Positions 9,183 to 62,957 of a stretch of 64,000 nucleotides of DNA are shown here, piece after piece. Origin of the DNA: Melaminivora suipulveris (GTDB lineage: Bacteria > Pseudomonadota > Gammaproteobacteria > Burkholderiales > Burkholderiaceae_C); contig NZ_CP027667.1 of assembly GCF_003008575.1 (NCBI RefSeq), positions 2,938,001 through 3,002,000 of the forward strand, written 5' to 3'. Every line of letters begins with the position of its first letter. Positions within the stretch are counted from its first letter, which is position 1. The notes beneath the pieces were generated by a model. That model had not been told where the DNA came from. It saw only the letters and a program-made list of their open reading frames with translations, and did no database searches. The position numbers and the translations under genes were made by a program.

Positions 9183-11813
9183 CTACCAATCCTCCCTCAC
9201 CGCCATCACCGCATCCCGCCCCGCCGCAGCCCTTCCCGCCAGCCACGCCGTCACCGTCCCCGCCACCATCACGGCCGCAGCCAACCCCGCAAGCCGCTCC
9301 ACCGGCACCCGAAGCTCCATCGTCCAGTGAAAACTCTGCGGGTTCACCACATGCACCAGCACCACCGCCACCGCCAGCCCCAGCAGCGTGCCGGCCAGCG
9401 CGCCCACGGCTGTCCAGGCGGCGCCTTCGCCGGCGACCACGGCGAGGATTTGCGCGCGGGTCAGGCCCAGGTGGGCCAGCAGCCCGAACTCCTTGCGCCG
9501 CGCCAGCACCTGCGCGCCAAAGCTGGCCGCCACGCCGAACAGGCCGATGCCAATCGCCACGGCCTGCAGCCAGTAGGTCACGGCAAAGCTGCGGTCGAAC
9601 AACTCTAGCGAGCGCTTGCGGATCTGCCCGGACGAGGTGAATTCCAGCGTGCCAGCCTGCGCGCCCAATTGGCTGCGCGCCAGCTCCAGCACGGCCGTGC
9701 GCACTGCCGCTTCATCGGCGCCGGGCGCGGGCCACAGCGCCAGATCGCTGGCGCGGGCGTCGCCGGTGAGGCGCTGAAAATCGCCGCTGTCCATGGCGAT
9801 GGCGCCGTGCTGGCGCACATAGTCGCGCCACACGCCAGCTATGAAAAATGTAGCTACTTGTCTTTTATCCACGCCGGATAACGGGCTAAAAGACTCAAGA
9901 AGTGCCGGCCAGGCCTGCCCAGGCCGCACGCCGTACAGGTCCACGATGGCCTCGCTCACGTACACGCCGATCTGCCCGGCCGGCACCGGCAGCGCTGCGC
10001 CGACCAGGGGCAGCGCCTGCGCCGGCTGCGGCTGCACGGGCCGCGCCAGCAGCGCCACGGCGGGCAACGCAGGGTCGGGTTGCACGCTGCTGACGCGCTG
10101 GGGCTGCACGCGCTGCACCTCGGGCAGACGCGCGGCGGCCTGCACGAAGGCGGGCGTGAACACGGCCGCGTCGTCGCCCGCCGGGCTGCCGGCCGCGCGC
10201 AGGTACAGCGGCGCAGGCAGCACGGCGGCGAGCCACTGGTCCACCGAGGTGCGAAAGCTGCCGACCATCACCGTGAGCGCCACCGCCAGGCTGAGCGCCG
10301 CCACCACGCCGCCCACGGCCACGGCGGCGCTGGTGCGCATGCGCTGGGCGCGCGCCAGCACCAACAGCCACAACGGGCCGCGCCGCGCCAGCGGCATGGC
10401 CAGCGCCAGCACGCCCTGCACCAGCCACGGCAGCAGAGCGATGCCGCCCACCAACAGCACGCCGACCGAAACATACGCCGCCAGCGGAATGCCCCACAGC
10501 GGCGGCAGCAGCGCCAGGCCCCCTGAAGCCAGCACCAGCGCCGCGCCCAGCCAGGCGCGCGCCGGGCGCGACTGCACCAGGCCCACGCCCTTGAGCGCGG
10601 GCGCCGGGGCGATGCGCCGTGCGGAGAGCGCTGGCCACCAGCCGCCCGCCAGCGCTGCGGCCAAACCCAGCGCGCCGTACAGCAGCGCCGCGGGCGTGCT
10701 CCACTGCAGCGCTGGCTGCACGCCGGTGAAGTAGCCCCCGCCCAGATCGCCCCCCAGCACGCGCAGCGCCAGCGCCGCCAGCGCCGCGCCCAGGGCGATG
10801 CCGGCGGCGCTGCCGGCCAAGCCCAGTCCTGCTGCCTGCGCCAGCACCAGCAGCAGGCGCTGGCGCGGCGTGGCTCCCAGCACGGCCAGCAGGGCGAGCT
10901 GCGGCGTGCGCCGCGCCACGCCCAGCGCCAGCACCGAATAGACCAGGAAGGCGCCGGTGAACAGCGCCACCAGCGCCAGCACCGTCAGATTGACGCGGTA
11001 GGCGCGCGAGAGCTGATCCACCTGCGCGGCGCTGTCGGCCGGCTCGGCCAGCAGCACGCCGCTTGGCCAGCCGGGCAGGGCGGCCAGGTGGCGCTCCAGC
11101 TCGGCGCGGCTGGCGCCCGCGCGCAGCAGCACGTCGATGCGCGACAGCTCGCCGCCGCGGCCGAACAGGTCCTGCGCCGCGCCAATGTCCATGACCGCCA
11201 GCGGCCCGCCGCCTGCGGTAATGCTGCCGGCCACGCGCACCGCCACGTGCTGGATGCCGACTTGCAATTGAAGCTGCGCTGCAGTGCCCAGCGGCAGGCC
11301 CAGCGCCTGCGCTGCCGATGCATTCAGGAAGATGGTCGCCGGCGCGAACAGCGCGAGCCGGTCGGCGCCCGGGGCAAGGCGCGGCATCAGCCCAGGCGCC
11401 ATGGACGCCAGCGCCAGCGCGTCGGCGCCGACAACGCGCAAGCGAACGGGTGCGACATCGGCGGCGAGCACGGCGCCGGGGAGGTTGATACCTGCCGCGC
11501 CGCCGGCATCGGTGCCGCGCGATGCACTGGTCGCCACCTCCAATACCGGCGCGGCGCGCGCCACCTGCGGCGCGGCGGCCACCAGCGCATACAGACCTTC
11601 CGGCAGGCTGCCTTGCCGCGCGCGCAATTGCACATCGGGCTGACCGCCCGCCGCACGCGTCGCGCGGGTGAACTCCTGCAGCGCCGAGGCATTGATCAGG
11701 TGCACGGCAAACGCCAGCGCCACGCCCAGCATCACGGCCGCGGCGGCGACCAGGCTGCGGCCGGGGTGGCGGCGCAGGTCTTGCCAGGAGAGGGTACGAA
11801 ACAGGCCGGCCAT
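9183..11813 (-). CDS. FtsX-like ABC transporter permease (AttF/AttG-like)
   Basis: An 876-residue inner-membrane permease with the duplicated FtsX/MacB-type layout: an N-terminal membrane segment (residues 19-40), a large periplasmic region, a block of membrane helices in the middle, a second periplasmic region, and three C-terminal helices. ATG 11813 begins MAGLFRTLSWQDLRRHPGRS, the usual amphipathic entry before helix 1; the open frame upstream would overlap the hsp20 promoter. Such permeases work with a LolD-like ATPase to move lipoproteins or other hydrophobic cargo. The matching ATPase is at 12427-13110, separated by hsp20 on the other strand. A dispersed repeat is embedded at 9837-9900. 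Confidence 0.88.
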   Translation of the reverse strand: MAGLFRTLSWQDLRRHPGRSLVAAAAVMLGVALAFAVHLINASALQEFTRATRAAGGQPDVQLRARQGSLPEGLYALVAAAPQVARAAPVLEVATSASRGTDAGGAAGINLPGAVLAADVAPVRLRVVGADALALASMAPGLMPRLAPGADRLALFAPATIFLNASAAQALGLPLGTAAQLQLQVGIQHVAVRVAGSITAGGGPLAVMDIGAAQDLFGRGGELSRIDVLLRAGASRAELERHLAALPGWPSGVLLAEPADSAAQVDQLSRAYRVNLTVLALVALFTGAFLVYSVLALGVARRTPQLALLAVLGATPRQRLLLVLAQAAGLGLAGSAAGIALGAALAALALRVLGGDLGGGYFTGVQPALQWSTPAALLYGALGLAAALAGGWWPALSARRIAPAPALKGVGLVQSRPARAWLGAALVLASGGLALLPPLWGIPLAAYVSVGVLLVGGIALLPWLVQGVLALAMPLARRGPLWLLVLARAQRMRTSAAVAVGGVVAALSLAVALTVMVGSFRTSVDQWLAAVLPAPLYLRAAGSPAGDDAAVFTPAFVQAAARLPEVQRVQPQRVSSVQPDPALPAVALLARPVQPQPAQALPLVGAALPVPAGQIGVYVSEAIVDLYGVRPGQAWPALLESFSPLSGVDKRQVATFFIAGVWRDYVRQHGAIAMDSGDFQRLTGDARASDLALWPAPGADEAAVRTAVLELARSQLGAQAGTLEFTSSGQIRKRSLELFDRSFAVTYWLQAVAIGIGLFGVAASFGAQVLARRKEFGLLAHLGLTRAQILAVVAGEGAAWTAVGALAGTLLGLAVAVVLVHVVNPQSFHWTMELRVPVERLAGLAAAVMVAGTVTAWLAGRAAAGRDAVMAVREDW
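9837..9900 (+). repeat. Dispersed repeat, copy A (inside the permease gene)
   Basis: Shows GCTAT, GTAGCTAC, TTTATCCACGCCGG and a trailing CTAAAAGACTCAAG in the family order. It is antisense to the host gene and encodes a periplasmic-loop segment, SFSPLSGVDKRQVATFF, without breaking the frame. Its AT content is far above that of the host gene. Confidence 0.75.
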
Positions 11814-11861
11814 GGAGCGATTGTGCGGCTGCGCGGCGCGCCGGCCCACCATTGCCGCGGC

Positions 11862-11888
11862 CTTGAAACCTGCCTTGCTGCTCGTATG
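11862..11888 (+). promoter_or_regulatory. Candidate sigma-32 (heat-shock) promoter of hsp20
   Basis: CTTGAAA (11862-11868) matches the sigma-32 -35 consensus exactly. About 13 bases later TCGTATGT is a partial match to the -10 element CCCCATNT. The site lies 78 bases before the hsp20 start, and its function is inferred from position and sequence. Confidence 0.5.
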
Positions 11889-11965
11889 TATGTCAAAGGC
11901 GCTGGCCGCTTTTGTGTGCGCCAGCGATTCATCCCCTCCATCCATTCCATGAAAGGAGCTTTGAC

Positions 11966-12400
11966 ATGAACTCTCTGGTTTCGCGCGGCAGCAGCAGCCT
12001 GTTCGACGACTTCTTCAAGGACTTCGCCCCCGGCTTTTATGTCCGCCCGCTGCACGGCGACAACCTGCCGTCCCCCTCGCAGATCAAGATCGACGTGAAG
12101 GAAAACGACGGCGCCTACACCGTCCAGGCCGAGGTGCCCGGCGTCGCCAAGGAGGACATCCACGTCAGCGTCGATGGCGCGGTGGTCACGCTGCGTGCCG
12201 AGGTGCGCCAGCACGACGAGAAAAAGGACGGCGAGAAGACCCTGCGCAGCGAGCGTTTCTACGGCTCGGTGGCGCGCAGCTTCCAGCTGCCGATGGAAGT
12301 CGAGGCGGGCGACTGCAAGGCCAGGTACGACAACGGCGTGCTCACGCTGACGCTGCCCAAGAAGCAAGGCGGCAAGGCGCAGCGGCTGGCCATCGAATAA
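11966..12400 (+). CDS. Hsp20/alpha-crystallin family small heat-shock protein
   Basis: A 144-residue holdase chaperone. The alpha-crystallin domain spans about residues 38-130: QIKIDVKENDGAYTVQAEVP opens it and the conserved YDNGVLTLTLPKK closes it. A short N-terminal arm (SLFDDFFKDFAPGF) and a basic C-terminal tail fit the oligomer-forming family; the I-x-I tail motif is not obvious. AAGGAG lies seven bases before ATG 11966. The gene sits on the opposite strand between an ABC permease gene and its probable ATPase gene, so it may have been inserted there. A heat-shock type promoter is visible upstream. Confidence 0.93.
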   Translation: MNSLVSRGSSSLFDDFFKDFAPGFYVRPLHGDNLPSPSQIKIDVKENDGAYTVQAEVPGVAKEDIHVSVDGAVVTLRAEVRQHDEKKDGEKTLRSERFYGSVARSFQLPMEVEAGDCKARYDNGVLTLTLPKKQGGKAQRLAIE

Positions 12401-12426
12401 GGCACTCCGGCGGACGCGCCGCCGCG

Positions 12427-13110
12427 TCAGCCCAGCGGCTGCATGCCCTGGGCCGTCAGGCGCAGCACGCGGTCGGCGCGCTGTGCGGCCGCCAGCGCGT
12501 GCGTGACTAGCACCAGCGCCGCGCCGCGCTCGCGCGTCTGGCGTGTCAGCACGTCCATGACGCGCGCCGCCGTGTCTGGGTCGAGGTTGCCGGTGGGCTC
12601 GTCGGCCAGCAGCAGGGGCGGGCGGTGCACCAGCGCGCGGGCAATCGCCACGCGCTGCAGCTGGCCGCCGCTGAGCTGCTCGGGCAGTCGCTCGTGCAAT
12701 CCGGCCAGCCCCACGGCGGCGAGCATTTCCTGCACCTGTGCCTCGCCCTGCGCATCGTGCATGCCCAGCAGCATCAGCGGCAGCGCCACGTTCTGCGCCA
12801 CGGTCAGTTGCGGCAGCACGTGAAAGGCCTGGAACACGAAGCCCACGTGCGCGCGGCGCCAAAGCGCGCGCCGCGCCTCGTCCATGGGGCCGATGTCCAC
12901 GCCGGCATGCGCGATGCGGCCGGCGTCCCAGTGGTCCAGCCCGGCCAGGCAATTGAGCAGCGTGGATTTGCCCACGCCCGAATCGCCGACGATGGCGACG
13001 AACTCGCCGCGCTGCACCCGCAGATCGACATGGCTGAAGACGGGCTGCGTGCCGTAATGCCGGGCCAGGCCTTCGACCTGCAGCAGGGGCGCGCTGTCCA
13101 GTGCGTTCAT
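12427..13110 (-). CDS. ABC transporter ATP-binding protein (LolD/MacB-like)
   Basis: A 227-residue ATPase subunit. Walker A is GDSGVGKST (residues 42-50), the Q-loop is near residue 94, the signature [15 protein letters not shown] starts at 146, and Walker B runs to D170-E171 followed by PTGNLD. The [10 protein letters not shown] stretch places it with the LolD/MacB/FtsE group that pairs with FtsX-type permeases. The ATG overlaps the miaA stop (ATGA at 13107-13110), so it is coupled to miaA translation. Its natural partner is the permease at 9183-11813; the lipocalin gene at 4368-5483 could be the third part of an AttEFGH-like system. The longer open frame lies inside miaA and is not real. 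Confidence 0.9.
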
Positions 13111-14090
13111 GCCCAGCCTTCCCGCGTCTGCAATCGCTCGCGCGCCGCCTGCACCAGTTGCGCCAGTGCGTGGGGGCCGTCGCAGGCAATCACGTGGCGG
13201 TCGGGCATGCCGCGCAGCCAGGTGATCTGCCGCTTGGCCAGTTGGCGCGTGGCGGCGATGCCGCGCTCGGGTAGCGTGGCCAGCGGGTGCGTGCCGTCCA
13301 GCGACTCCCACGCCTGGCGGTAGCCCACGCAGCGCATGCTGGGTAGTTGCAGGTGCAGGTCGCCGCGCGCGCGCAGGCGCATGACTTCGTCCAGAAAGCC
13401 TGCGGCCAGCATGGCCGTGAAGCGCTCGGCGATGCGCGCGTGCAGCCAGGCGCGATCTTGCGGTTCCAAGGAAAAAAGGGCTCCAGTCGCGATGGGACTT
13501 GGCCTGTCAGCTCCATTTTTTGTAGTGTGAAAGCTCGACAGCGGCCGCCCGGAGACGTGCCACACCTCCAGCGCACGCTGGATGCGCTGGCTGTCGCCAG
13601 GGGCCAGCCGCGCGGCCGTGGGCGGGTCGATGCGCGCCAGCTCGGCGTGCATGGCCGGCCAGCCGATGGCGGCGGCCCTTTGGTCCAGCCGCGCGCGCAC
13701 GGCCGCATCGGCCGGCGGCATGTCGTCGATGCCGTCCATCAGCGCCTTGAAGTACAGCATGGTGCCGCCCACCAGCAGCGGCAGCGCGCCGCGTGCCTGG
13801 ATGTCCGCGATCAGGCGAGTCGCGTCCTGCACGAACTCGGCGGCGCTGTAGGCCTCGCGCGGGTCGCGGATGTCGATCAGGTGGTGCGGCACGGCGGCCA
13901 GCTCTGCCGGCGTGGGCTTGGCGGTGCCGATGTCCATGCCGCGATAGACCAGCGCCGAATCGACGCTGATGATCTCCACCGGCACGCGCGGCGCCAGCGC
14001 CGCGGCAATCGCCAGCGCGCCGGCCGTCTTGCCCGAGGCGGTGGGCCCGGCCAGGGCGATGGGGGCCAGCAGGCCGGCGTCAGTGCGCAT
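13107..14090 (-). CDS. miaA: tRNA dimethylallyltransferase MiaA
   Basis: A 327-residue enzyme that adds a dimethylallyl group to A37 of tRNAs reading UNN codons. The P-loop GPTASGKT is at residues 15-22, followed by the substrate motif [18 protein letters not shown] and later [13 protein letters not shown]. Length and order fit the family. It overlaps the MFS gene upstream by 11 bases and the ABC ATPase gene downstream by 4, so three unrelated genes share a transcript. An unusual segment near residues 190-210 ([20 protein letters not shown]) is encoded by a dispersed repeat and interrupts a normally shorter linker. Confidence 0.95.
13462..13527 (-). repeat. Dispersed repeat, copy M (inside miaA)
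   Basis: On the minus strand it reads ACTACAAAAAATGGAGCTG, then CATCGCGACTGGAGCC and TTTTTTCCTTGGAA, in the same order and spacing as the other copies. It is sense-oriented in miaA and read through in frame. Confidence 0.7.
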
Positions 14091-15333
14091 CGCGCGGCTC
14101 CCCGTGGCGCTGCACCAGCGTCCAGGCCACGGTGGCCAGCAGCGCCGACCACAGCGCCACGCCCTGCACCAGCGGCCAGACGCTGCCGTCCAGCGCGCGC
14201 CCCAGCCACAGGCCGATGGCGAACGCCGCCAGCATCATCATGAAGCCGTTCAGCGCCGAGGCCACGCCCGCGGCCTGCGGGAAGGGCCCCACGGCGCCCG
14301 TCTGCCCGCACGGCTGGTGGATGCCGTGGCCCAGCATGAACAAATAGTACGGCGGCAGCAGCGCGCCCACGCTGTGCCAGCCGGCCAGCGCCACGGCCAG
14401 GCTGCCCAGGCCGCCCGCCAGGCTCAGGGCCGCGCCGATGGCCACCGTGCGCCGCAAGCTGAAGCGCGCCAGCAGTCGCCGGCACACCAGCGTGCCGACC
14501 AGATACGCCGCGGCCGTGGACAGCAGCAAAAAGCCGTAGTGCGTGCGCGAGGCGCCCAGCACCTCGATATAGACGAAGGACGACGCCGCCAGGAAGGTGA
14601 ACAGCCCGCCGTAGCTGGCGGTGGTGAGCAGCGAAAACGCCCAGAAGGTGGGCGAGCGCAGCACCAGCGCCCAGTTGCGCAGGAAGGTCGCGGGCTCGAG
14701 CGCGCGCGGATTGGGCCGCGCCAGCGTCTCGGGCAGGCGCAGGGCCACGGCGGCCAGCGTGGCGACGCCATAGACGGTGAGCGCCAGCAGCGCCGCGCGC
14801 CAGCCAAACGCCTCGGTCAGCGCGCCGCCGATGGGCGCGCACAGGCAGGCGATGACGCCCAGGCCGGTGAGCGCGCGCGACATGGCGCGCGCGCCCGCCA
14901 GCGGTGCGTACAGGTCGCGCACGATGGCGCGCGCGCACATCACCGCCGCGCCCATGGCCGCGCCCTGCAGCGTGCGCCACAGCACCAGCTGTTCCATGCT
15001 GGCGGCCAGCGCGCTGCCCACCGAGGCCAGCACGTACAGGCCCAATCCTGCTAGCAGCACCGGCCGGCGCCCGAAGCGGTCCGACAGCGGCCCCCAGGCC
15101 AGTTGCGAGGTGCCGAACGCCAGCAGCAGCGCCGACAGCGTGAGCTGCCCCGCTGCCACCGGCGCGCCCAGGCTGCGCGTGAGCGCGGGCAGCGCCGGCA
15201 GGTACAGATCGGTGGTGACGGGCTGGATGCTCAGCAGCAGCGCCAGCAGCAGCACCGCCATGCCGGGCGGCAGCAGTGGCGCGGACGCAGACGGGGTAGC
15301 CGCCGCCGCGGCGGGCGCGGCCTCAGGCGGCAT
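14080..15333 (-). CDS. Bcr/CflA family multidrug efflux MFS transporter
   Basis: A 417-residue, 12-helix major facilitator of the drug-H+ antiporter DHA1 type. Family signs are the first-helix motif [18 protein letters not shown], the loop 2-3 motif [15 protein letters not shown], and motif C-like glycines in helix 5 ([20 protein letters not shown]). The N terminus before helix 1 is an alanine/proline-rich tail. It likely exports drugs, dipeptides or sulfur amino acid derivatives, as Bcr does, but the substrate is not shown by the sequence. Its end overlaps miaA by 11 bases. Confidence 0.9.
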
Positions 15334-15372
15334 GAAAAGGCCAGCGGGCGGCGCGCGGCGTGCGCAAAGGCA

Positions 15373-15813
15373 TCACGCCAGCGCCTCGCGCAGGCGCGCG
15401 GCGTAGTCGGCCAGCACTTGCGGGCCGGGCTCCTTGCGTGGCCAGGTGAAGCTGATGCCGTCGTCTTCATGGCGCGGCACGACGTGCATGTGGAAGTGCC
15501 CCACGGTCTGCCCGCCGGCGGCGCCGTTGGCCTGCAGGAGCGTCAGCCCGGCCGGGTCGAACACCTGCTGCGCGGCGCGCGCCACGCGCTGGGCGCATCG
15601 CATGACGGCGGCGGCCTCCTCGGGCGTGGCGTCGGCCAGCGTGGCGGCGTGGCGGCGCGAGGCCACCAGCATGTGGCCGGGCGTGACCTGGCCCAGGTCC
15701 ATGAAGGCGATGCTCAGCTCGTCCTCGTGGACGATGGCGGCCGGGATCTCGCGCGCCACCAGGCGGCAGAAAATGCACTGGCCGGGCGGCGAGGTGTCGA
15801 CAAACATTGGCAT
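15373..15813 (-). CDS. HIT family hydrolase
   Basis: A 146-residue histidine-triad nucleotide hydrolase. The catalytic triad motif GHFHMHVVPR holds H106, H108 and H110. CIFC at residues 13-16 opens the fold, and IVHEDELSIAFMDLGQVTPGH follows the HINT pattern. It probably cleaves nucleoside phosphoramidates or dinucleotides in the cytoplasm. An ATG two codons later (MFVD) is an alternative start. The gene lies 40 bases upstream of the MFS gene and may open the miaA transcript. A dispersed repeat sits just upstream of its start. Confidence 0.92.
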   Translation of the reverse strand: MPMFVDTSPPGQCIFCRLVAREIPAAIVHEDELSIAFMDLGQVTPGHMLVASRRHAATLADATPEEAAAVMRCAQRVARAAQQVFDPAGLTLLQANGAAGGQTVGHFHMHVVPRHEDDGISFTWPRKEPGPQVLADYAARLREALA

Positions 15814-15826
15814 GGCGTGTCTTTCT

Positions 15827-15882
15827 TGCTATGCAATATATAGCTGGAGGCGCTTTATCCGCGCCGACAAACACCAAATTGG
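15827..15882 (+). repeat. Dispersed repeat, copy B (intergenic)
   Basis: TTGCTAT, then ATATAGCTG, GGCGCTTTATCC and GCGCCGACAAA: one of the best matches to the family consensus. It lies between the HIT gene and the porin terminator. Confidence 0.85.
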
Positions 15883-15887
15883 ACCAT

Positions 15888-15915
15888 AAAAAAAAGCACG
15901 CGCCCGAGCGCGTGC
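15888..15915 (-). terminator. Rho-independent terminator of the porin gene
   Basis: GCACGCGC and GCGCGTGC form a perfect 8-bp stem around a 4-base loop. On the minus strand a run of eight T follows, 26 bases beyond the porin stop. Confidence 0.88.
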
Positions 15916-15940
15916 CTTCAGGTGCGCCGCGGCGCGCCGG

Positions 15941-16966: not shown

Positions 16967-17069
16967 GGGTGAGATCCTTCTTGGGTTCATGGGGCAGCGA
17001 GGGGCGGGCCGAGCGGGCCGCCGGCTATTGTGAGCGAACGTACGCGCCGGCGGTGTTGCGTGCATGCCT

Positions 17070-17083
17070 TTGACATTGCTCAA
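17070..17083. promoter_or_regulatory. FNR/Crp-type binding box
   Basis: TTGAC-ATTG-CTCAA differs from the FNR consensus TTGAT-N4-ATCAA at only two positions. It lies between the divergent porin and Crp/Fnr regulator genes, 35 bases before the proposed regulator start. It could mediate autoregulation or control of the porin by oxygen or nitric oxide. Confidence 0.5.
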
Positions 17084-17117
17084 AGCGCAAAAAAACCAGG
17101 GCGGCACAGTGGCGCCC

Positions 17118-20199: not shown

Positions 20200-20211
20200 T
20201 TGGCAGATGTT

Positions 20212-24422: not shown

Positions 24423-25355
24423 ATGAGAGAGCCAGCCCTTTTCGACAAGATCGACCTTCATCTCATCCGGGTCTTGCACACCGTGATCACTGAACGCAGC
24501 GTTTCGCGTGCCGCCCTGCGCCTGGGCATGCACCAGCCGGCCGTCTCCAGCGCCCTGCGCCGCCTGAGGGAGCTGGCGGGCGATCCGCTGCTGGTGCGCT
24601 CGGGCAGCGGCATGCAGCCGACCGATGCGGCGCTGTCCATGGTCGAGCCGGCGGCCAGCATCCTGCACGCCGCCGAAGTGCTGTTCTCCGACGCGCGCGG
24701 TTTCGATCCGCGCAGCGCCACGCGCACCTTTCGCATCGCCGCCAGCGACTACCTCGATCCGCTGTTCCTGCCCATGCTGGTCTCGCGCATCAAGGTCGAG
24801 GCGCCGCTGTGCCTGGTGGAGATCCTGCCGCTGTCGGCCGATGCGCACTACCACGCGCATCTGGCGCAGGGCGAGGCCGACGTGGTCATCGGCAACTGGC
24901 CCGAGCCGCCGGGCGACCTGCACCTGGGCCGGCTGCTGGCCGACGAAGTGGTGTGCCTGGTCAGCCACGAACACCCGGCGGTGCGCCGCGGCTGGAGCCA
25001 GGAGGACTGGCTGGCCGCCGAACACATCGCCCCCACGCCCACGCACCCCGGCGCGCGCGGCGTGATCGACGCGCACCTGCACGACCTGGGCCTGTCGCGA
25101 CGCATCACCGTGCGCTGCGCGCACTTCAGCCTGATCCCGGCCATGGTCGCCGGCAGCCTGCTGGTGCTGACCAGCGGCCGGCAATTTTGCGAGCGCTATG
25201 CCGAGCGGCTGCCGCTGGCGGTGCTGCCGGCGCCGCTGGCATTTCCGCGCCTGATGTACTACCAGCTGTGGCATGCGCGCACGCACCACTCGGCGGCAGG
25301 CGCCTGGCTGCGCGAATGCATCAAGAATGTGGCCGCATCGCTACGGAAAGGATAG
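24423..25355 (+). CDS. LysR family transcriptional regulator, probably of xdhAB
   Basis: A 310-residue regulator. The winged HTH is within residues 10-69 (HLIRVLHTVITERSVSRAAL, then RLGMHQPAVSSALRRLRE), followed by the linker helix and a periplasmic-binding-protein-like effector domain (FRIAASDYLDPLFLP onward). This subgroup resembles NodD/LeuO-type LysR proteins. It is divergent from xdhA, the classical arrangement for control by a pathway metabolite, perhaps a purine. The last codons and the TAG stop lie inside a dispersed repeat, so the element defines the C terminus SLRKG. Confidence 0.9.
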   Translation: MREPALFDKIDLHLIRVLHTVITERSVSRAALRLGMHQPAVSSALRRLRELAGDPLLVRSGSGMQPTDAALSMVEPAASILHAAEVLFSDARGFDPRSATRTFRIAASDYLDPLFLPMLVSRIKVEAPLCLVEILPLSADAHYHAHLAQGEADVVIGNWPEPPGDLHLGRLLADEVVCLVSHEHPAVRRGWSQEDWLAAEHIAPTPTHPGARGVIDAHLHDLGLSRRITVRCAHFSLIPAMVAGSLLVLTSGRQFCERYAERLPLAVLPAPLAFPRLMYYQLWHARTHHSAAGAWLRECIKNVAASLRKG

Positions 25356-32903: not shown

Positions 32904-33980
<1,077 letters not shown>

Positions 33981-45136: not shown

Positions 45137-45871
45137 TCAGTCGCAGCGCGGCTGGGCCGCCGCCAGGATGCGACCGGCGCCGTCCTGCACCCAGGCCAGC
45201 ACGCGCAGGCGCTCGGGCTGAGCGCCTTCGGGGATGCGCATGGCGCGCACTTCCAGCCATTCCTCGCGCTCTTGTTTTGATAGCTGCTCGCGCTTGTTCC
45301 ACGCTGACTCAAAGGCATTTCTGACCACATTGCGGCCGATAGGGCTGTCTTCAGCGCCCGCCGCGACCGCCTCGTACAGGACGACACGCATCCGGTAGGT
45401 GCCCGCGGCGCGCGCCGCAGCCTGCAGCCGCAGCGTGACGCCCACGTAGTCGCCCACTGGCAGCCCGGACGAGATGCGCAACCGGGCGGCCGGGCGCGCG
45501 GGCAGGTCGGTGATGTGGGTGTCGGTATCCATCGGAGCGGCGCGGCCCAGTTCGGCCAGGCGCGCTTCGGCCTCGCGCACTGCCGCCGTGGCCAGCGCGG
45601 CGGCATCGCCCTGCGCGGTCGGCACGATCCAGTCCAGCACCAGAGCGTCGGCAGCGGGCGACAGGGCGCCGCGCGGCTCGCTCCAGCAGGGCGCGCAGTC
45701 GGCGCTGATGAAGCGCTCGACCAGCAGGCGCGGCGCGGGTGCGGCGGCAGCGCCGCTGGCGCACTGCGCGTGCACGGCGCCTGCGGCCATGGCCCCGGCG
45801 AGCAGCGCAGGCAGCGCGCTAATGCGCAGCCGGGCGGCTTTGCGGTCGTGGCAGGCGCGGGAAATGTGCAT
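45137..45871 (-). CDS. Exported protein with thioredoxin-like CxxC motif, function unknown
   Basis: A 244-residue protein with a signal peptide ([20 protein letters not shown], hydrophobic core to AVHAQ at about 36). [20 protein letters not shown] looks like a thioredoxin-fold active site with C-A-P-C, similar in place to DUF1223 proteins. The C-terminal half is beta-rich ([20 protein letters not shown]) and may bind a partner. It probably acts in the periplasm as a thiol oxidoreductase-like protein; this is inference. A dispersed repeat encodes the segment [17 protein letters not shown]. The giant open frame reaching 49270 is an antisense shadow of the helicase. Confidence 0.75.
45273..45320 (+). 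repeat. Dispersed repeat, copy G (inside the CxxC-protein gene)
   Basis: TTGATAGCTGCTCGCGCTTG, TTCCACGCTGACTCAAAGGC and ATTTCTGA: very close to the consensus. It is antisense to the host gene and translated in frame. Confidence 0.85.
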
Positions 45872-50408: not shown

Positions 50409-50786
50409 TCAGAAGCGTCCCAGGTTCCACACGCGCGGCGCCGTGACGGTGTCGGAGGCGTCCAGATTGCCCGGCCGGGCACGCGCGCCATCCTGGGCCC
50501 TGACCTCGTAGGAAGGCAGGGCTGCTGCGGTCTTGGGCTGCACGGTGATGCTCTGCGTCTGCCCGCCCACGCGCAGCTCGTCCACGCGGCTGCCGGCGTC
50601 CTCGACCACGATGCGCTGCACGCGCTGGTTGCGCCGGCCTTCCAGGGGTTCGGGTTGCTCCTGGTTTGGTAGCTGGCTGCGCTCTCCAGCATTGGGCCGG
50701 ACGCTGTTTTGGGCCGGGTCCTGGGCCAGGGCCGGCAGGCTGGCCAGGGCCAGCAGCAAGGGGGTGAGGAGCAAAGGGGCGCGCAT
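50409..50786 (-). CDS. DUF2782-like exported protein
   Basis: A 125-residue protein with a clear signal peptide (MRAPLLLTPLLLALASLPALA) and a conserved core near RVDELRVGGQTQSITVQPKT and SYEVRAQDG, as in DUF2782 proteins that lie between thrB and polA in many beta-proteobacteria. Function unknown; likely periplasmic. A weak copy of the dispersed repeat encodes the NAGERSQLPNQ part just after the signal peptide. Confidence 0.75.
   Translation of the reverse strand: MRAPLLLTPLLLALASLPALAQDPAQNSVRPNAGERSQLPNQEQPEPLEGRRNQRVQRIVVEDAGSRVDELRVGGQTQSITVQPKTAAALPSYEVRAQDGARARPGNLDASDTVTAPRVWNLGRF
50663..50711 (+). repeat. Possible dispersed repeat, copy I (inside the DUF2782-like gene)
   Basis: TTTGGTAGCTGGCTGCGCTC then TCCAGC, GCCGGACGCTGTTTTG. 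The order of blocks fits but the right half is shortened, so this is a weak match. Confidence 0.4.
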
Positions 50787-55668: not shown

Positions 55669-55890
55669 GAAGGGGTGGATGGACGGCGGCCTGGCGATCG
55701 CGCGATCCAGGCGGGGTCTGGGGCAAACCCTCGCGCCAGCGGCTTGACCCCGCCGCCCGGCGCCGCCTAGCATGCCCGAGCACGCCGCGCGCCATGCGGG
55801 CGTGAGCGCGGTGGCGGCCGTGGTTGGGTGAAGAAGGTCTTGGATGGCCCCCATTGCAGAGGTTTCGCTCCATCACTGGAAGGATCTCCC

Positions 55891-57354
55891 ATGATCGATC
55901 GTGCAAGCGGCGCCCGGCCGCAGGCGGGCATCGCGCCCGAAATCCGCAGCGAGAACTTGCCGCCTGTCACCTACCGCGATCTGCCCGAACCCCTGCCCAT
56001 GCGCAAGGTGGTGGGGGCCAGCGTGATCCTGCTGGCCGGCTCCGTCGGATCGGGTGAGTTCGTGCTGTGGCCCTACATGGCCACGCAGACCGGGCTGGCC
56101 CTGGTGTGGCTGGCGACCATCGGTGTGCTGACGCAGTATTTCCTGAACATGGAAATCGAGCGCTACACGCTGGCCACCGGCGAGACCGCCGTGACCGGTT
56201 TCACCCGGCTGTGGAAGCACTGGAGCTGGCTGTTCATCATCATGGCCGTGGTGCCGTGGATGTGGCCGGGCTGGGCGTCGGGCAGCTCCACCGCGCTGAC
56301 CTACGCCTTCGGCCTGTCGGCCGACAAGGTGCTGCCCATCACCATCGCCTCGCTGATCCTGATCGCCATCGTGCTCACGGTCTCGCCAGTGGTCTACAAG
56401 ACGGTGGAAAAGATCCAGGGCCTGCTGGTGGCGCTGATCGTGCTGTTCATGCTGTACATGCTGTTCGGCCTGCTCACCGGGCAATCCTGGTCGGCGCTGT
56501 TTGGCGGCTTCACCGCCGAGGTGCCGGCAATCCCCGCCGCGGTGGGCAAGATCCCGGTAGCGCTGCTGCTGGGCGCCATCGCGTTTGCCGGCGCCGGCGG
56601 CGTGATGAACCTGGCGCAGTCCAACTGGATCCGCGACAAGGGCATGGGCATGGGCGCGCACCTGCCCAAGATCGTCTCGCCGATCACCGGCGAGGAAGCC
56701 ACCAGCGGCTCCATCGGCTACTTCTTTCCGCAGGACGAGGAAAACATGCGCCGCTGGCGCGGCTGGTGGCGCGTGGCCGACCGCGAGCAGTTCATCACCT
56801 TCTTCGTGCTCGGGCTCTTGGCCATCCTGCTGTTCATGGCGCTGGCCTACACCTATGTGGGCGTGGGTAGCGAGGCCAAGAACTTCGACTTCGTGCGCCT
56901 GCTTGGCGAGTCGCTGAACGCCAAGGCCGGCGGCTGGGCGGGCCATGCGTACTGGCTGACGGGAGTGGTGGTGCTGCTGTCGACCAACCTGGCGGTGGTG
57001 GACATGATCGGGCGCATCGTCGCCGATATCTGCAAGACCAACTGGCTGCGCGACAGCAAGACCTGGTCGGAGAGCCGCCTGTACGTGCTGGTGGTGTGGC
57101 TGATGGTGGCCTTCGGCTCGGTGATCCTGCTGTCCGGCGTCAGCCAGCCGCTGGTGCTGCTGGTGATCGCCTCGTCGCTCAACGGCCTGGTGATGTTCGT
57201 CTACTCGGTGCTGCTGATCCAGCTCAACCGCGGCATGCTGCCGCGCGCCATCGGCCTGAAGGGCCTGCGCTACGCGGCCATCTGGTGGGCCGTGGTGTTC
57301 TACGGCGGCTTCTCGATCTATCTGTTGATCGACCAGTTCGGCAAGCTGTTGTAG
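55891..57354 (+). CDS. Nramp-related transporter lacking the DPGN motif
   Basis: A 487-residue membrane protein with about eleven helices and Nramp/LeuT-like organisation. Helix 1 reads GSVGSGEFVLWPYMATQTGL, in place of the metal-binding DPGN. The equivalent helix-6 region reads AFAGAGGVMNLAQSNWIRDK, without the usual methionine-histidine pair. So it belongs to the divergent Nramp-like group, and manganese or iron transport cannot be assumed. ATG 55891 has AAGGA seven bases upstream. A single-gene unit. Confidence 0.82.
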   Translation: MIDRASGARPQAGIAPEIRSENLPPVTYRDLPEPLPMRKVVGASVILLAGSVGSGEFVLWPYMATQTGLALVWLATIGVLTQYFLNMEIERYTLATGETAVTGFTRLWKHWSWLFIIMAVVPWMWPGWASGSSTALTYAFGLSADKVLPITIASLILIAIVLTVSPVVYKTVEKIQGLLVALIVLFMLYMLFGLLTGQSWSALFGGFTAEVPAIPAAVGKIPVALLLGAIAFAGAGGVMNLAQSNWIRDKGMGMGAHLPKIVSPITGEEATSGSIGYFFPQDEENMRRWRGWWRVADREQFITFFVLGLLAILLFMALAYTYVGVGSEAKNFDFVRLLGESLNAKAGGWAGHAYWLTGVVVLLSTNLAVVDMIGRIVADICKTNWLRDSKTWSESRLYVLVVWLMVAFGSVILLSGVSQPLVLLVIASSLNGLVMFVYSVLLIQLNRGMLPRAIGLKGLRYAAIWWAVVFYGGFSIYLLIDQFGKLL

Positions 57355-57410
57355 ATGCGTTCGGATGGGGCCGCCCGGTAGGGCGGCATCATCCTCGCCA
57401 CCTGGCGCGG

Positions 57411-58277
57411 CTATTTGCCTGAGGCCGCTGCGGCGGCCGCTTTCTTTTGCAGCACCACCAGCGCGATGCCGCCCAGGATGGCGGCGGCGCTGAGCGCGAA
57501 GCGCAGCGTCAGCGGCTCGTTCAAAAGCGCCACCCCGCCCAGGGCCGCCAGGACCGGAACGCTCAGCTGCATGATGGCGGCGCTGGTGGCCTTGAGCGCG
57601 GGCAACGCCGCATACCAGATGATGTAGCCCAGCCCCGAGGCCACGGCGCCGGAGGCGATGCCATACAGCAGCCCCGCGCCATCCCGCTGCGCGCTGCCCA
57701 GCGTCGCCACGCTCAGCGCCAGGCACAGCGGAACCGTGCGCAGAAAATTGCCCGCCGTGCTGGCCAGCGGATCGCCCGCGCCCCTGCCGCGCAGCGAATA
57801 AACACCCCAGGCGACGCCGGCGCTGATCATCAGCACCGCGCCCGCGACCGGCGGCGCGGACAGGCCTGGCGAGAGCAGGCCGGCCAGCCCGCCGATGGCC
57901 AGGGCCAGGCCGACGAGTTGCAGCCGACGCAAGCGCTCTCCTGCCCACAGGCCGTAGCCGATCATGCTCGCCTGCACGGCGCCGAACAGCAGCAGCGCGC
58001 CGGTGGCGGTGCTCAGGCTGACGTAGGCATAGGAAAAGGTGGCCGCATAGGCGAACAGCGCGCCGGCCGACCACCAGTCGCCGCCGCCCTTTGCTTGCGG
58101 GCCGCGACGCAGGCGCACGATGAGCCACAGCACTGCGGCGCCGGAGATCAGCCGCGTGCTGGCAAAAGACGCGGCGTCGATGCCCGTTTGCGTCAGAGCC
58201 ACGCGGCACAGCAGCGAATTGCACGCGAAGGCGAGCATGGACAGCGATGACAGGATGAGGATGCGCACGGAAGTCAT
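57411..58277 (-). CDS. EamA/DMT family transporter
   Basis: A 288-residue protein with ten hydrophobic helices in two EamA repeats. The first repeat begins MTSVRILILSSLSMLAFACN and the second has AVLMISAGVAWGVYSLRGRG. The C terminus is alanine/lysine-rich. It likely exports small metabolites, but no substrate is indicated. Its start lies 62 bases downstream of the fumarase stop, with a terminator in the gap. Confidence 0.88.
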   Translation of the reverse strand: MTSVRILILSSLSMLAFACNSLLCRVALTQTGIDAASFASTRLISGAAVLWLIVRLRRGPQAKGGGDWWSAGALFAYAATFSYAYVSLSTATGALLLFGAVQASMIGYGLWAGERLRRLQLVGLALAIGGLAGLLSPGLSAPPVAGAVLMISAGVAWGVYSLRGRGAGDPLASTAGNFLRTVPLCLALSVATLGSAQRDGAGLLYGIASGAVASGLGYIIWYAALPALKATSAAIMQLSVPVLAALGGVALLNEPLTLRFALSAAAILGGIALVVLQKKAAAAAASGK

Positions 58278-58294
58278 GAGATGCTGCGGTCCAA

Positions 58295-58319
58295 TGAAAA
58301 AACCGCCCAGAGGCGGTTT
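58295..58319 (-). terminator. Terminator of the class I fumarase gene
   Basis: AAACCGCC and GGCGGTTT form an 8-bp stem around CAGA; the minus strand continues with six T. It lies 20 bases after the fumarase stop. Confidence 0.85.
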
Positions 58320-58339
58320 CCATTGTGCGGCGTGTCGGG

Positions 58340-59899
58340 TCAGGCGGTAGCCAGCTCGATTCCCTTGAACTCGCCACTGGCGATGCGCTTTTGCCATTCC
58401 GCAGGACCGGTGATGTGCGCGCTGGTGCCGCCGGCATCGACGGCCACGGTGACGGGCATGTCCACCACGTCGAACTCGTAGATGGCTTCCATCCCCAGGT
58501 CCTCGAAGCCGACCACGCGCGCCTGCTTGATGGCCTTGCTGACCAGATAGGCCGCGCCGCCCACGGCCATGAGGTAGGCGCTCTGGTGGCGCTTGATGGC
58601 CTCGATGGCCACCGGGCCGCGCTCGGCCTTGCCGATCATGGCGATCAGGCCGGTTTGCGACAACATCATGTCGGTGAACTTGTCCATGCGCGTGGCGGTG
58701 GTCGGGCCGGCCGGGCCCACCGCTTCGTCGCCCACAGGATCGACCGGACCGACGTAGTAGATGACGCGGTTGGTGAAATCCACCGGCAGCTTCTCGCCTT
58801 TGGCCAGCATGTCCTGGATGCGCTGGTGCGCGGCGTCGCGGCCGGTGAGCATCTTGCCGTTCAAAAGCAGCGCCTGGCCGGGCTTCCAGCTGGCGACTTC
58901 TTCCTTCGTCAGGGTGTTCAGATCGACGCGCTTGCTGGTCTCGGTGTTCGGCGCCCACTGCACCTGCGGCCACAGGTCGATGCTGGGCGCCTCCAGGTAG
59001 ACCGGGCCGCTGCCGTCCATCACGAAGTGCGCGTGGCGCGTGGCAGCGCAGTTGGGGATCATGGCCACGGGCTTGCTGGCGGCGTGCGTGGGGTACAGCT
59101 TGATCTTCACGTCCAGCACGGTGGAAAGACCGCCCAGGCCCTGCGCGCCTATCCCTAAGGCATTCACCTTCTCGAACAGCTCCAGGCGCAGCTCCTCGAC
59201 TTGGGTCAGCTTTTCGCCGCGGGCAGCCTTGGCCTGCAGCTCGTACATGTCCAGGTCTTCCATCAGGCTTTCCTTGGCCAGCAGCACGGCCTTTTCCGCC
59301 GTGCCGCCGATGCCGATGCCCAGCATGCCCGGCGGGCACCATCCGGCGCCCATCTCGGGCACGGTCTTCAGCACCCAGTCCACCAGGCTGTCGCTGGGGT
59401 TCATCATGACCATCTTGGACTTGTTCTCGCTGCCGCCGCCCTTGGCGGCGACGGTGATGTCCAGCACGCTGCCGGGCACGATCTGCACGTTGATGACGGC
59501 GGGCGTGTTGTCACGGGTGTTCTTGCGGGCAAAGTGCGGATCGGCGACGACGCTGGCGCGCAGCGTGTTTTCCGGGTGGTTGTAGCCGCGGCGCACGCCC
59601 TCGTTGATGGCATCTTCCAGGCTCTGGTCGGCGGCAAAGCCCTCGAAGCGCACGCCCATACCGATCTTCAGGAAGACGTTGACGATGCCCGTGTCCTGGC
59701 AGATGGGCCGGTGGCCGTAGGCGGCCATCTTGCTGTTGGTGAGGATCTGCGCCATGGCGTCCTTGGCAGCCGGAGACTGCTCGCGCTCGTACGCGCGCGC
59801 CAAGTGCTGGATGTAGTCGGCCGGGTGGTAGTAGCTGATGTACTGCAGCGCGCCGGCGATGGATTCCACCAGATCGTGGTAACGGATGGTCGTGGTCAT
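58340..59899 (-). CDS. fumA: Fumarate hydratase class I (iron-sulfur)
   Basis: A 519-residue enzyme that hydrates fumarate to malate with a 4Fe-4S cluster. Cysteine-containing motifs are [27 protein letters not shown] and the GWCPPG region. The C-terminal domain ([18 protein letters not shown] onward) holds the typical [20 protein letters not shown] stretch. Oxygen-sensitive enzyme. It is divergent from the class II fumarase fumC, so the cell has an iron-dependent and an iron-free version at one locus. Database naming as fumA or fumB is arbitrary. Confidence 0.93.
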
Positions 59900-60106
59900 G
59901 GCCTTGGGACGTTGGTGACGTGTAACAAAAATGACTGCGGGATTATCCCTATCCCGCCTTGCACGGGGCTGGCTGTGGCCATTGGCGGCCCCCGCCGACC
60001 CCGCGCATGCGGGTTTGCGTTGCAAGATCGGGCCATCCGGCGGCGCCGCTGCGCTGGCGGCGTCGTGTCTTTCTTTCCCTTTTCTCTAGCGAGGAGTTTT
60101 TGCGCC

Positions 60107-61519
60107 ATGAACCAGCACACCCACGGCGAGCCCGCCGGCACCCGCACCGAGCGCGACACCTTCGGCCCCATCGAGGTGCCGGCGGGCCGCCTCTGGGGCG
60201 CGCAGACGCAGCGCTCGCTGATCAACTTCGACATCTCCGGCGAGCAGCAGCCGCCCGAGCTGATCCGCGCCCTGGTGCAGGTCAAGCGCGCGTCGGCCAA
60301 GGTCAACCATGCCCTGGGCCTGCTGCCCGACGAGCGCACGCGCGCCATCCTGGCGGCCGCCGACGAGGTGCTCGACGGCCGGCACGACGGCGAGTTTCCG
60401 CTGGTCGTGTGGCAGACGGGATCGGGCACGCAGACCAACATGAACGTCAACGAGGTGCTGGCCAACCGCGCCAGCGAAATCCTGGGCGGCGAGCGCGGCG
60501 AGGGCCGGCTGGTGCATCCCAACGACGACGTGAACAAGAGCCAGTCGAGCAACGACGTCTTTCCCACCGCCATGCATGTCTCGGCGGTGCTGGCCATCGT
60601 GCACCGGTTGCTGCCGGCGCTGGAGGAGCTGCGCGGAACGCTGGAGGAGAAATCGCGGCAGTTCGCCGACGTGGTCAAGATCGGCCGCACGCACTTGCAG
60701 GATGCGACGCCTTTGACGCTGGGCCAGGAGATCTCAGGCTGGGTGGCGCAGCTGCGCCATGGCGAATGGCATGTGCGCGCCGCGCTGCCGCATCTGCACG
60801 AGCTGGCGCTGGGCGGCACGGCCGTGGGCACGGGCCTCAACGCGCCGGCCGGCTACGCGCAAGCCGTGGCGCAGGAGATCGCAAGCCTGACGGGCCAGCC
60901 CTTCGTGACGGCGCCGAACAAGTTCGAGGCGCTGGCCAGTTGCGATGCGCTGGTCTCGGCGCACGGCGCGCTGAAGACGCTGGCGGGCAGCCTGATGAAG
61001 ATCGCCAACGACGTGCGCTGGCTGGCCAGTGGGCCGCGCAGCGGCATCGGCGAGATCAGCATTCCGGAGAACGAGCCCGGCTCATCCATCATGCCGGGCA
61101 AGGTCAACCCGACGCAGTGCGAGGCCATGACCATGCTGTGCGCCCAAGTGATGGGCAACGACGTGGCCATCAACATCGGCGGCGCCAGCGGCAACTTCGA
61201 GCTGAACGTGTTCCGGCCCATGATCAGCTACAACTTCCTGCAGAGCGTGCGCCTGCTGGCCGATGGCATGGTCAGCTTCAACACGCACTGCGCCGTGGGC
61301 ATAGAGCCGCAGCACGCGCGCATCGCGCAGCTGCTGGAGCGCTCGCTGATGCTGGTCACGGCGCTGAACACCCACATCGGCTACGACAAGGCCGCCGAGA
61401 TCGCCAAGAAGGCGCACCGCGAGGGGACGACGCTGCGCGAGGCTGCCCTGGCACTGGGGCACGTCACCGGGGCGCAGTTCGACGAGTGGGTGGTGCCGGG
61501 GAAGATGGTGGGGCGCTGA
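60107..61519 (+). CDS. fumC: Fumarate hydratase class II
   Basis: A 470-residue iron-independent fumarase. The superfamily signature [17 protein letters not shown] is intact, with [19 protein letters not shown] and the catalytic-histidine region [22 protein letters not shown] lies about nine bases before ATG 60107. It tolerates oxidants that damage the class I enzyme encoded on the other side of the 207-base spacer. The nearest terminator is not obvious; the convergent topoisomerase gene ends four bases away. Confidence 0.96.
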
Positions 61520-61523
61520 TCCG

Positions 61524-62813
61524 TCAGCCGGCGGCGGCGCGCTGCGCTACGGCGACGGCAGGCGCGGCGCGACGGCGGCCTGTCGTCGCGCGCCGCTGAG
61601 CTTTGACTGAGCGGGGCGATGCCGAGTGGACGAGCCGCACCGGCGCCACCGCCGCGTGCTTCTTGCTGGCTTTCGATGGCTGCGCCGCCGGCGCCTCGGC
61701 CGCCAGCCGCAGCGGGCGGCGCAGGAAGGCCAGCAGCCGGCGCTCCGCCGCGCTCAAGGCGCGCGGGCTTGCGCCGACGCGTTGCAGCCGCTGCCACAGG
61801 CGCTGCTGCGCCCGCGCGCCAGGGGCGACGTCCTCGGCCAGTGCCAGCACCGCCGGGTGGATATAGGACTTGCGGCACACCGCAGGCGTGTTGCCAAGCT
61901 GGCGCGCCACCTCCACCACCATCTGCCGCGCGCGGCTGCGCGCTGCTGTCTGGCTGCACGCCTCTTCGCTGCTCTGCGCACAGGCGGCGCGCGTCAGCTC
62001 CAATGCGTGCGCCGTGCCGTGCCAGGTACGGAAATCCTTGGCGGTGAAATGCCCGGCATCGCCGGCGACCTCGGCCAGATAGGCGTTCACATCGCCCGAG
62101 CAGATGCAGTGCACCTCGCCATCGTCACCGCGCCAGCGAAACAGCTCCTGCCCCGGCAGTTGCTGGCAGCGCCGCACCACACGCGCCACGCGCGGGTCGT
62201 CCAGCTGCGCTTCGTGCTCCACACCGCTCTTGCCGCGAAAGCGCAGGCGGATGCTGTCGCCCTGCACCCTGGCGTGGCGCGCACGCAGCGTGGTCAGGCC
62301 GTAGGAGCCGTTGGCGACGGCGTACTCCTCGTTGCCCACGCGCAGATAGGTCGTGTCCAGCAGCCGCACGATGGCCGCCAGCACGCGCTCGCGCACCAGC
62401 AGGCGGCCGGGCGCGCCCAGGTCGCGCAGCACGCGCGCGCGGATGCGCGGCAGCGCCTGGCCGAAGGCGCGCATGCGCTCGAACTTGGATGCGTCGCGCA
62501 CGCGCCGCCAGTCCGGGTGGTAGCGGTATTGCAGCCGCCCGCGCGCATCGCGCCCGGTGGCCTGTAGATGGCCGTGGGGCAGGGGGCAGATCCACACGTC
62601 CTGGTACGCCGGCGGGATGGCCAGGCGGCGGATATGCGCCAGGTGTTCTTCGTCCTGCAGCCACTCGCCTGCGGGCAGGCGGTAGCGGAAGGCATCGCCC
62701 TCGCGCACCCGCGTGATGCCGGGCTGGCTGCGGTCCACGTACACCAGGCCGCCGGGCAGGCGGGACGCGGCGGCGCTCGTGCTGGATGAGGAGAGGGCGG
62801 AGGCGGTCATCAT
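61524..62813 (-). CDS. DNA topoisomerase IB (poxvirus-type)
   Basis: A 429-residue type IB topoisomerase. Catalytic tyrosine Y317 is in CRKSYIHPAVL; the pocket residues are in LRVGNEEYAVANGSYGLTTL, LRFRGKSG and AKDFRTWHGT (259-267). It relaxes supercoils without ATP. The last 60 residues form a basic, alanine-rich tail (PSKASKKHAAVAPVRLVHSA) that may bind DNA. A second ATG follows at 62810. It ends four bases from fumC, convergent. Confidence 0.93.
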   Translation of the reverse strand: MMTASALSSSSTSAAASRLPGGLVYVDRSQPGITRVREGDAFRYRLPAGEWLQDEEHLAHIRRLAIPPAYQDVWICPLPHGHLQATGRDARGRLQYRYHPDWRRVRDASKFERMRAFGQALPRIRARVLRDLGAPGRLLVRERVLAAIVRLLDTTYLRVGNEEYAVANGSYGLTTLRARHARVQGDSIRLRFRGKSGVEHEAQLDDPRVARVVRRCQQLPGQELFRWRGDDGEVHCICSGDVNAYLAEVAGDAGHFTAKDFRTWHGTAHALELTRAACAQSSEEACSQTAARSRARQMVVEVARQLGNTPAVCRKSYIHPAVLALAEDVAPGARAQQRLWQRLQRVGASPRALSAAERRLLAFLRRPLRLAAEAPAAQPSKASKKHAAVAPVRLVHSASPRSVKAQRRATTGRRRAAPAVAVAQRAAAG

Positions 62814-62906
62814 GCCGCGATCAGACCGTGCGCGCGCCGCTGCGGCTGTCGGCAGGTTCCAATGCCATGCGTGGGAGACGGCTGTGTGCGGCCGTGACAG
62901 GCGATT

Positions 62907-62957
62907 TCGGGTGTTTTTGGCCCTCAGTCGGCGTCAATCAAGCGTGAGCAGCTAGCA
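62907..62957 (-). repeat. Dispersed repeat, copy J (intergenic)
   Basis: Minus strand: TTGCTAGCTGCTCACGCTTG, then ATTGACGCCGACTGAGGGCC and AAAAACACC. A compact version with a shortened left arm, between the topoisomerase gene and the proX terminator. Confidence 0.82.

Follow-up and report, generated by a model that had tools for sequence, protein, structure and literature searches.

The stretch of DNA analysed here, which we call the window, is 64,000 nucleotides from Melaminivora suipulveris (contig NZ_CP027667.1, positions 2,938,001 to 3,002,000). Its genes include miaA, xdhA-type and xdhB-type genes, uvrD, polA, a LysR-type gene, and genes for an FtsX/MacB-type permease and an adenosine deaminase. 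Within and between these genes lie copies of a dispersed repeat, which is our subject. The original prediction, made from the letters of the window, listed 14 copies. We trained a scoring matrix on 58 copies, all of them from outside the window, and scanned both strands. Exactly the same 14 places scored above -5 bits (Table 1): twelve copies had 30-77 bits, while the copies at 33178 and 50657 had 17.8 and 5.1 bits, respectively. The best score in 60 dinucleotide shuffles of the window was 5.3 bits. Thirteen of the 14 copies are secure, mostly by a wide margin. The two copies that had been listed as weak fared differently: the one at 33178 is above the shuffles, and the one at 50657 is at chance level on its own score, though three congeners have a good element at this site (62.4 bits in G004, 50.7 bits in G003, and 55.9 bits in G001, each with its own matrix). 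We also used a seed profile in which all but one of the 25 sequences lay outside the window; ten of the window copies passed its threshold for inclusion, and the majority of the others ranked next.

A single ungapped frame of 64 bp, or about six helical turns, accommodates all 14 copies. The motif opens with GCTAY and ATAGCT, separated by an A/T tract; a centre of about 25 bp that is particular to each species follows, and then come GGC, an A-tract, and an A-rich end. What had been described as a variable run of 6-9 bases is really an A/T-rich spacer of fixed length within this frame. The centre is palindromic in several species. Across four genomes of the genus (M. suipulveris and congeners G001, G003, and G004), the GC content of the copies is 0.46-0.52.

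Table 1. Copies of the 64-bp repeat in the window, scored with the matrix trained outside it.
Class	Start	End	Strand	Score (bits)	Context
copy	9838	9901	+	52.7	in FtsX/MacB-type permease gene (gene on - strand), residues 682-703; congeners equal in length
copy	13463	13526	-	36.2	in miaA, inside IPPT domain, residues 189-210
copy	15828	15891	+	57.2	intergenic; exact core-pattern match
copy	20214	20277	+	76.9	intergenic; highest score in the window
copy	21382	21445	-	30.1	xdhB-type gene, MoCoBD_1/MoCoBD_2 boundary, residues 419-441; congeners equal in length
copy	23586	23649	-	31.0	xdhA-type gene, linker before FAD domain, residues 189-211
copy	25340	25403	+	56.0	across end of LysR-type gene, open reading frame 24423-25355
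weak copy	33178	33241	-	17.8	in adenosine deaminase gene (opposite strand), inside domain
copy	36636	36699	+	75.3	intergenic
copy	45268	45331	+	50.5	no gene predicted by the gene finder
copy	48107	48170	+	54.1	uvrD, UvrD_C/tudor linker, residues 865-886
decayed copy	50657	50720	+	5.1	chance level alone
copy	52896	52959	+	67.6	polA, linker between 5'-3' and 3'-5' exonuclease domains, residues 282-303
copy	62904	62967	-	67.4	intergenic

Copies inside genes are read through in frame, as originally predicted. The further claim that more than one frame is used needs correction: there is mostly one phase per orientation (9/11 and 7/7 of the in-gene copies in M. suipulveris), although this is weaker in G004 (8/15 and 12/17). 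The copies were also said to sit in inter-domain linkers. This holds for polA, uvrD, xdhA, and xdhB, where they occupy a linker or a domain boundary, but the copies in miaA and the adenosine deaminase gene are inside domains. A gene for a CxxC protein was not confirmed at 45268. The long open reading frame (ORF) across this copy is of the GMP-reductase/IMPDH type, with a Pfam match only from residue 322, and the copy would occupy residues 183-205. The stop codon of the LysR-type gene does come from the repeat: it is the TAG inside ATAGCT, where the ORF ends.

The repeat is abundant throughout the genome, far above control sequence, and so it passes the check in the original prediction that a genome-wide search should give more hits than chance. 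An exact core pattern, taken from the sequence blocks of the original prediction, has 25 matches in the 3.754-Mb genome and none in the reversed control. In a sequence-model search of the same genome, we scored 150 of 3,799 candidates, and every one had E < 4e-9. We also sampled each of the four genomes at even spacing, for about 439-464 kb per genome, including the window and its counterparts. The numbers of sites above the best reversed-sequence score were 71 in M. suipulveris, 92 in G003, 89 in G004, and 78 in G001. This corresponds to 153-203 sites per Mb across the four genomes and to about 150 per Mb in M. suipulveris, or, by rough extrapolation, about 575 copies in its genome.

Given a simple gene finder that we wrote for this purpose (coding fraction 0.85-0.90), we classified the sampled copies by context. 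For M. suipulveris, G003, G004, and G001, respectively, 18, 24, 32, and 16 copies are inside genes; 16, 31, 23, and 24 lie over gene ends; and 37, 37, 34, and 38 are between genes. Copies are enriched between genes: 146 of 330 are wholly intergenic. In all four genomes, in-gene copies score below other copies. In gaps between codirectional genes, 72 copies have the same orientation as the genes and 66 have the opposite orientation. These numbers, together with the split between the lagging (137) and leading (105) strands, speak against a role as a terminator or as a Chi/KOPS-like signal.

Counts per 20-kb block are more even than expected by chance (P = 0.0019). Just five of 81 blocks are free of copies, and we inspected four of these five with Pfam, using chosen genes. 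Of the inspected blocks, two are from M. suipulveris: one contains metal resistance genes, and the other contains AbiE, a transposase, and an RND pump. The other two contain DUF3363 with Kdp (G003) and glycosyltransferases (G001). Judging from the chosen genes, these four blocks resemble islands or variable loci.

The tract to the right of the centre has a distinctive composition. Columns 38-41 are mostly TTTT, ATTT, or AAAA, and in all four genomes, 95-100% of copies have matching neighbouring letters at columns 39-41. After dropping near-identical copies, the step TpA accounts for 7 of 1,191 A/T dinucleotides at columns 38-41 in six genomes, as compared to 12% in the M. suipulveris genome at large. 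The left tract is looser (TpA is 16/250 in M. suipulveris). By its composition, the right tract is an A-tract, which suggests that a protein reads the motif as duplex DNA.

We found little sign of folding. The original prediction had proposed folding the consensus as RNA. The consensus fold of 26 copies from M. suipulveris has 3 pairs, no covariation, and no conserved stem. When copies were folded singly, five of seven were no better than shuffles; the copies near 20211 (z = -3.1) and 15826 (z = -1.5, slight) did better. The missing consensus fold in M. suipulveris, together with the five copies at shuffle level, speaks against a function as an RNA or DNA hairpin. The sole Rfam match in the window was to tRNA; we did not search for retroelements or for small RNAs beyond Rfam. 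We also considered a binding site for IHF, but the resemblance, judged by eye, is partial and is seen in some dialects.

The four genomes share the outer frame of the motif (GCTAY and ATAGCT on either side of an A/T tract, then, beyond the centre, a GGC block followed by a second tract and an A-rich end). Each has its own centre: CGCTTgAtncACGCCGaCTGA in M. suipulveris, GCGCTTGnCnggCgaGCGCTgGAG in G003, AGCGCTTGcCnggCAAGGGTTtgAG in G004, and GGCCCTTGnnnnanAaGGGC in G001. The centre is palindromic in G003 and G001. Relatives mostly have an element at orthologous sites, with a different centre, and inside genes the element is usually of equal length. We will call these species-specific forms dialects.

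To compare inheritance of the centre and the arms, we used 80 orthologous pairs from 39 sites, after excluding targets without an element of at least 20 bits. For the centre, average identity was 0.531 when one site was compared between two species, 0.571 between separate sites of a single species, and 0.478 between separate sites of two species. For the arms, the corresponding values were 0.713, 0.521, and 0.515. The same-site identity minus the within-species identity was -0.037 for the centre (95% interval from bootstrapping over sites, -0.061 to -0.009) and +0.192 for the arms (0.150 to 0.231). On these identities, the centres appear to evolve in concert within species, while the outer arms appear to follow descent. 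The gene-conversion-like behaviour that was originally suggested is in agreement with this. As for whether orthologues simply retain the sequence by descent, within the genus the site is retained and the central letters are not; more distant genera were compared through protein profiles only. With each copy excluded from its own matrix, 73 of the 80 pairs had a source copy that preferred its own dialect, 69 had a target that did so, and in 62 this was true of both copies. Source copies were found with the matrix of their own genome, which biases the source side, and targets were accepted under either matrix.

Sites that lack the element in one of the genomes bear on how copies arise. With sources required to score at least 40 bits and targets to score less than 15, there were 45 absent cases. 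Setting aside the 27 of these whose context was intergenic, at a gene end, or unknown, there are 18 comparisons within genes. Sixteen of the 18 differ in length by 0-9 bp, and two differ by -21 and -126 bp; in the latter case (G000 versus G003), G003 does carry the element at that site. The 18 comparisons represent seven distinct sites, several of which were seen from up to four species, mostly versus congener G002. At these few sites, the lengths support the view that in-gene copies probably arose by base changes and not by insertion. Between genes, lengths vary, and some differences are -58, -64, or -66 bp; whole segments may be gained or lost there.

G002 appears to be an exception within the genus. 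The model built from M. suipulveris (R1) found no element in G002 at E ≤ 1e-9. We identified 27 pairs of flanks in G002, of which 13 are tightly aligned, and the tight ones differ in length by -9 to +3 bp. Among the 27, one segment exceeds 20 bits under the G001 matrix. We considered whether loss of ComEC could explain the missing element, as ComEC at first appeared to be absent from G002. We rejected this, since an open 292-residue C-terminal piece begins at a contig end, and the apparent absence is an unreliable effect of the assembly edge.

To examine the distribution of the repeat more broadly, we searched 24 genomes with R1 (E ≤ 1e-9). There were at least 149 matches in M. suipulveris, 9 in G003, and one in each of four other genomes, with none in the remaining 18. 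R1 is nearly species-specific, and it misses nearly all of the copies in G001 and G004, so dialects that are remote from a model can escape it. We therefore built a family-wide model (R2) from 42 named copies and scored at most 25 candidates per genome. R2 matches 46 of 200 genomes from the family, representing 37 of 141 genera. Among these best candidates, 24 genomes had 18-25 matches and 22 genomes had 1-12. Across 250 genomes from the order, R2 matched three, all from the same family as M. suipulveris. A degenerate pattern is found in at least 120 stretches of named genomes, including Acidovorax, Simplicispira, Giesbergeria, Ottowia, Comamonas, Polaromonas, Rhodoferax, Diaphorobacter, Ramlibacter, and Rubrivivax, as well as several generally named bins.

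The degenerate pattern also matched records labelled Pseudomonas baetica and Propionibacteriaceae bin (L297 and L285), which might reflect contamination or misbinning. In a viral collection, a single contig has the pattern (L371, IMGVR_UViG_3300020176_000010, at 7301-7336); as the collections are unlike in size and composition, this number is not a rate.

Polaromonas naphthalenivorans belongs to the same bacterial family. In its strain CJ2, the motif ATAGCT(N)22CAAAAG was reported to have 125 copies, of which 101 are intergenic and 18 are in genes (PMC5217627, Table 7). The motif is listed there as being of unknown function, and the available part of that report mentions neither a 64-bp frame nor dialects nor an origin in place (PMC5217627). 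This motif has three matches in 3.73 Mb of partly overlapping DNA that we searched, and all three resemble copies of the element in register. Part of the repeat family was therefore already seen in CJ2. Our searches of the open-licence literature did not turn up a named description of this element.

Another known repeat, BRE, is dispersed in Comamonadaceae and Bordetella, with some copies in genes (Hot 2011, PMC3110155). As described for Bordetella, BRE is 75-91 bp with 69% GC, and some copies are in tandem (PMC3110155). In contrast, our element is 64 bp and 46-52% GC. Also, BRE is found in Alcaligenaceae, whereas the R2 matches across the order are all within one family. We set BRE apart by its description, not by comparing its letters.

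The systems that our repeat most resembles are the DNA uptake sequences (DUS) of Neisseriaceae and the uptake signal sequences (USS) of Pasteurellaceae, which are the families in which uptake sequences are established (PMC3630211, PMC2397512). DUS and USS are described as having dialects, a bias towards the core genome, a preference for permissive sites, and absence from acquired DNA; it has also been argued that many of them arise via recombination and not by point mutation (PMC3630211, PMC2397512). Like DUS and USS, our repeat has hundreds of dispersed copies, dialects, a bias towards permissive sites, and copies in genes. DUS and USS differ from it in having cores of 9-12 bp with many perfect copies, instead of 64 bp with a palindromic centre and an A-tract, and in being from other families. 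When the M. suipulveris centre ACGCCGACTGAA is compared to the Neisseria DUS ATGCCGTCTGAA, 10 of 12 letters are equal, which may be due to chance.

Natural transformation is known in the Comamonadaceae. Specifically, Verminephrobacter eiseniae, Acidovorax temperans, and Acidovorax facilis are naturally transformable, and for V. eiseniae there is evidence of selective uptake as well as a requirement for type IV pilus genes (PMC4212676). The accessible text of that report names no uptake motif for the three species (PMC4212676). Because the distribution and dialects of the repeat resemble the published traits of DUS and USS, and because family members are transformable, we consider an uptake sequence to be the most likely explanation. 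By analogy, we propose that the repeat is the DNA uptake sequence for natural transformation in Comamonadaceae, with a probability of roughly 0.53. The fuller proposal, that it is a 64-bp uptake motif that is partly read by shape, has an often palindromic and species-specific centre, spread in place, and marks DNA of the organism's own kind in many genera of Comamonadaceae, has in our estimation just short of an even chance.

The motif, its copy number, its dialects, and its distribution are as described above; the receptor, the bias in uptake, and the drive would operate as follows. The 64-bp motif would be recognized as double-stranded DNA across the genome. A DNA receptor at the cell surface, belonging to the type IV pilus, would favour DNA that carries the local dialect. 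The better its motif, the more often a fragment would be imported and recombined, so changes that improve the motif would spread, including into genes where the protein sequence tolerates them. If the specificity of the receptor shifted, then the centre would change everywhere, which would give rise to the dialects.

Several observations weigh against this proposal. Compared to the uptake cores that are known, the motif is far longer and less strict: ATAGCT is intact in 240 of 330 copies (49/71 in M. suipulveris, 65/92 in G003, 66/89 in G004, and 60/78 in G001), and copies are just 52-64% identical to each other in the four genomes. To our knowledge, no DNA uptake sequence approaches 64 bp, which is several times longer than any that we are aware of. 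The spread of pairwise identities (standard deviation of 0.075-0.084 in the four genomes) is wider than in column shuffles (0.056-0.057), which counts against full independence of the columns. The concerted effect at the centre comes from three of the six species pairs, and the other three are equal to within 0.004. The centre is also partly inherited, as the same site in two species is more similar than different sites in two species (0.531 versus 0.478). There is a slight excess of copies on the lagging strand, and duplication accounts for some of the spread in the tandem arrays of A. temperans, which are described below. ComEC is found in 189 of the 200 family genomes, as compared to 46 with an R2-type element, and so does not discriminate; GspH-type pilins are in all five genus genomes and hence are uninformative.

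The published transformation experiments raise further difficulties. There was no transformation between Acidovorax species (PMC4212676), yet just 2 of 68 columns differ strongly between the dialects of A. temperans and A. facilis. With dialects this near to identical, we rejected dialect as the cause of this barrier. However, the two Acidovorax matrices were seeded with the same family matrix, which would tend to make them alike. The A. temperans matrix had 77 sites from 400 kb, of which 17 are in the two tandem arrays; the A. facilis matrix had 31 rows, of which 29 are distinct (some loci overlap), with 13 from samples totalling 80 kb and the rest chosen by R2 or the pattern. Also, the genomes of A. 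defluvii and A. delafieldii carry the pattern, and these species gave no transformants (PMC4212676).

The main alternative is that the repeat is an internal binding site: sites for a cytoplasmic protein that organizes the chromosome, or for another nucleoid-associated protein, would be maintained by selection at many places, and the dialects would track changes in the protein. The A-tracts and the palindromic centre would suit a DNA-binding protein, and the even spread of the copies, without a bias in gene orientation, fits as well. But the motif carries 51-58 bits of information, while by our reasoning about 14 bits would be enough to specify several hundred sites. Selection would also have to maintain and re-spell hundreds of sites, some of them in genes, and G002 apparently does without the element (by R1, and in the flank pairs except for the one segment above 20 bits). 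We consider this alternative to be unlikely, albeit the strongest of those we considered.

It is much less probable that the repeat is a mobile element that inserts as a unit. In Rickettsia, palindromic elements are repeats that are read in frame within proteins, to which they add a peptide by insertion. The original prediction compared our repeat to these elements and suggested that it was mobile and wrote peptides into proteins. High copy number, in-frame read-through, some of the intergenic length differences (-58, -64, or -66 bp), and the tandem units in A. temperans are all consistent with insertion. However, none of the 18 in-gene absences shows a change in length near 65 bp, so although in-frame reading is shared with the Rickettsia elements, the peptide inserter is not supported at the seven distinct sites that inform on it. 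Miniature inverted-repeat transposable elements and repetitive extragenic palindromic sequences would be expected to have terminal inverted repeats or a stable hairpin, and the consensus fold from M. suipulveris shows none. Finally, just three pairs of copies in the four samples combined are over 80% identical, and the A/T columns conserve a property while their letters vary, so letter-by-letter copying from a master does not fit.

The tandem arrays that we found are in A. temperans DSM 7270. One array (L336:11272-12749) has 6 copies and the other (L351:5572-9460) has 11, with a spacing of mostly about 261-319 bp. The units of the L336 array contain GGACTAACGCC...GGTTAGACC strings that resemble the attC sites of integrons. 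This suggests that the L336 array may be a series of cassettes, each carrying an element.

We give slightly less credence still to template-directed rewriting, in which element-derived RNA or single-stranded DNA, present in abundance, would convert similar sites without changing their length: this would explain the preserved lengths and the concerted centre, but the A/T letters vary by site, with A-runs and T-runs both frequent, and copying from one template would erase the inheritance of the arms by site.

If the repeat is an uptake sequence, then a common environmental family would have an independent and far longer uptake system than those known from Neisseriaceae and Pasteurellaceae. It could provide the motif for the selective transformation that was reported in Verminephrobacter. 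The evolution of uptake specificity could then be tested over many natural dialects. It would also mean that hundreds of sites, some of them within essential genes such as polA, have been re-spelled in concert.

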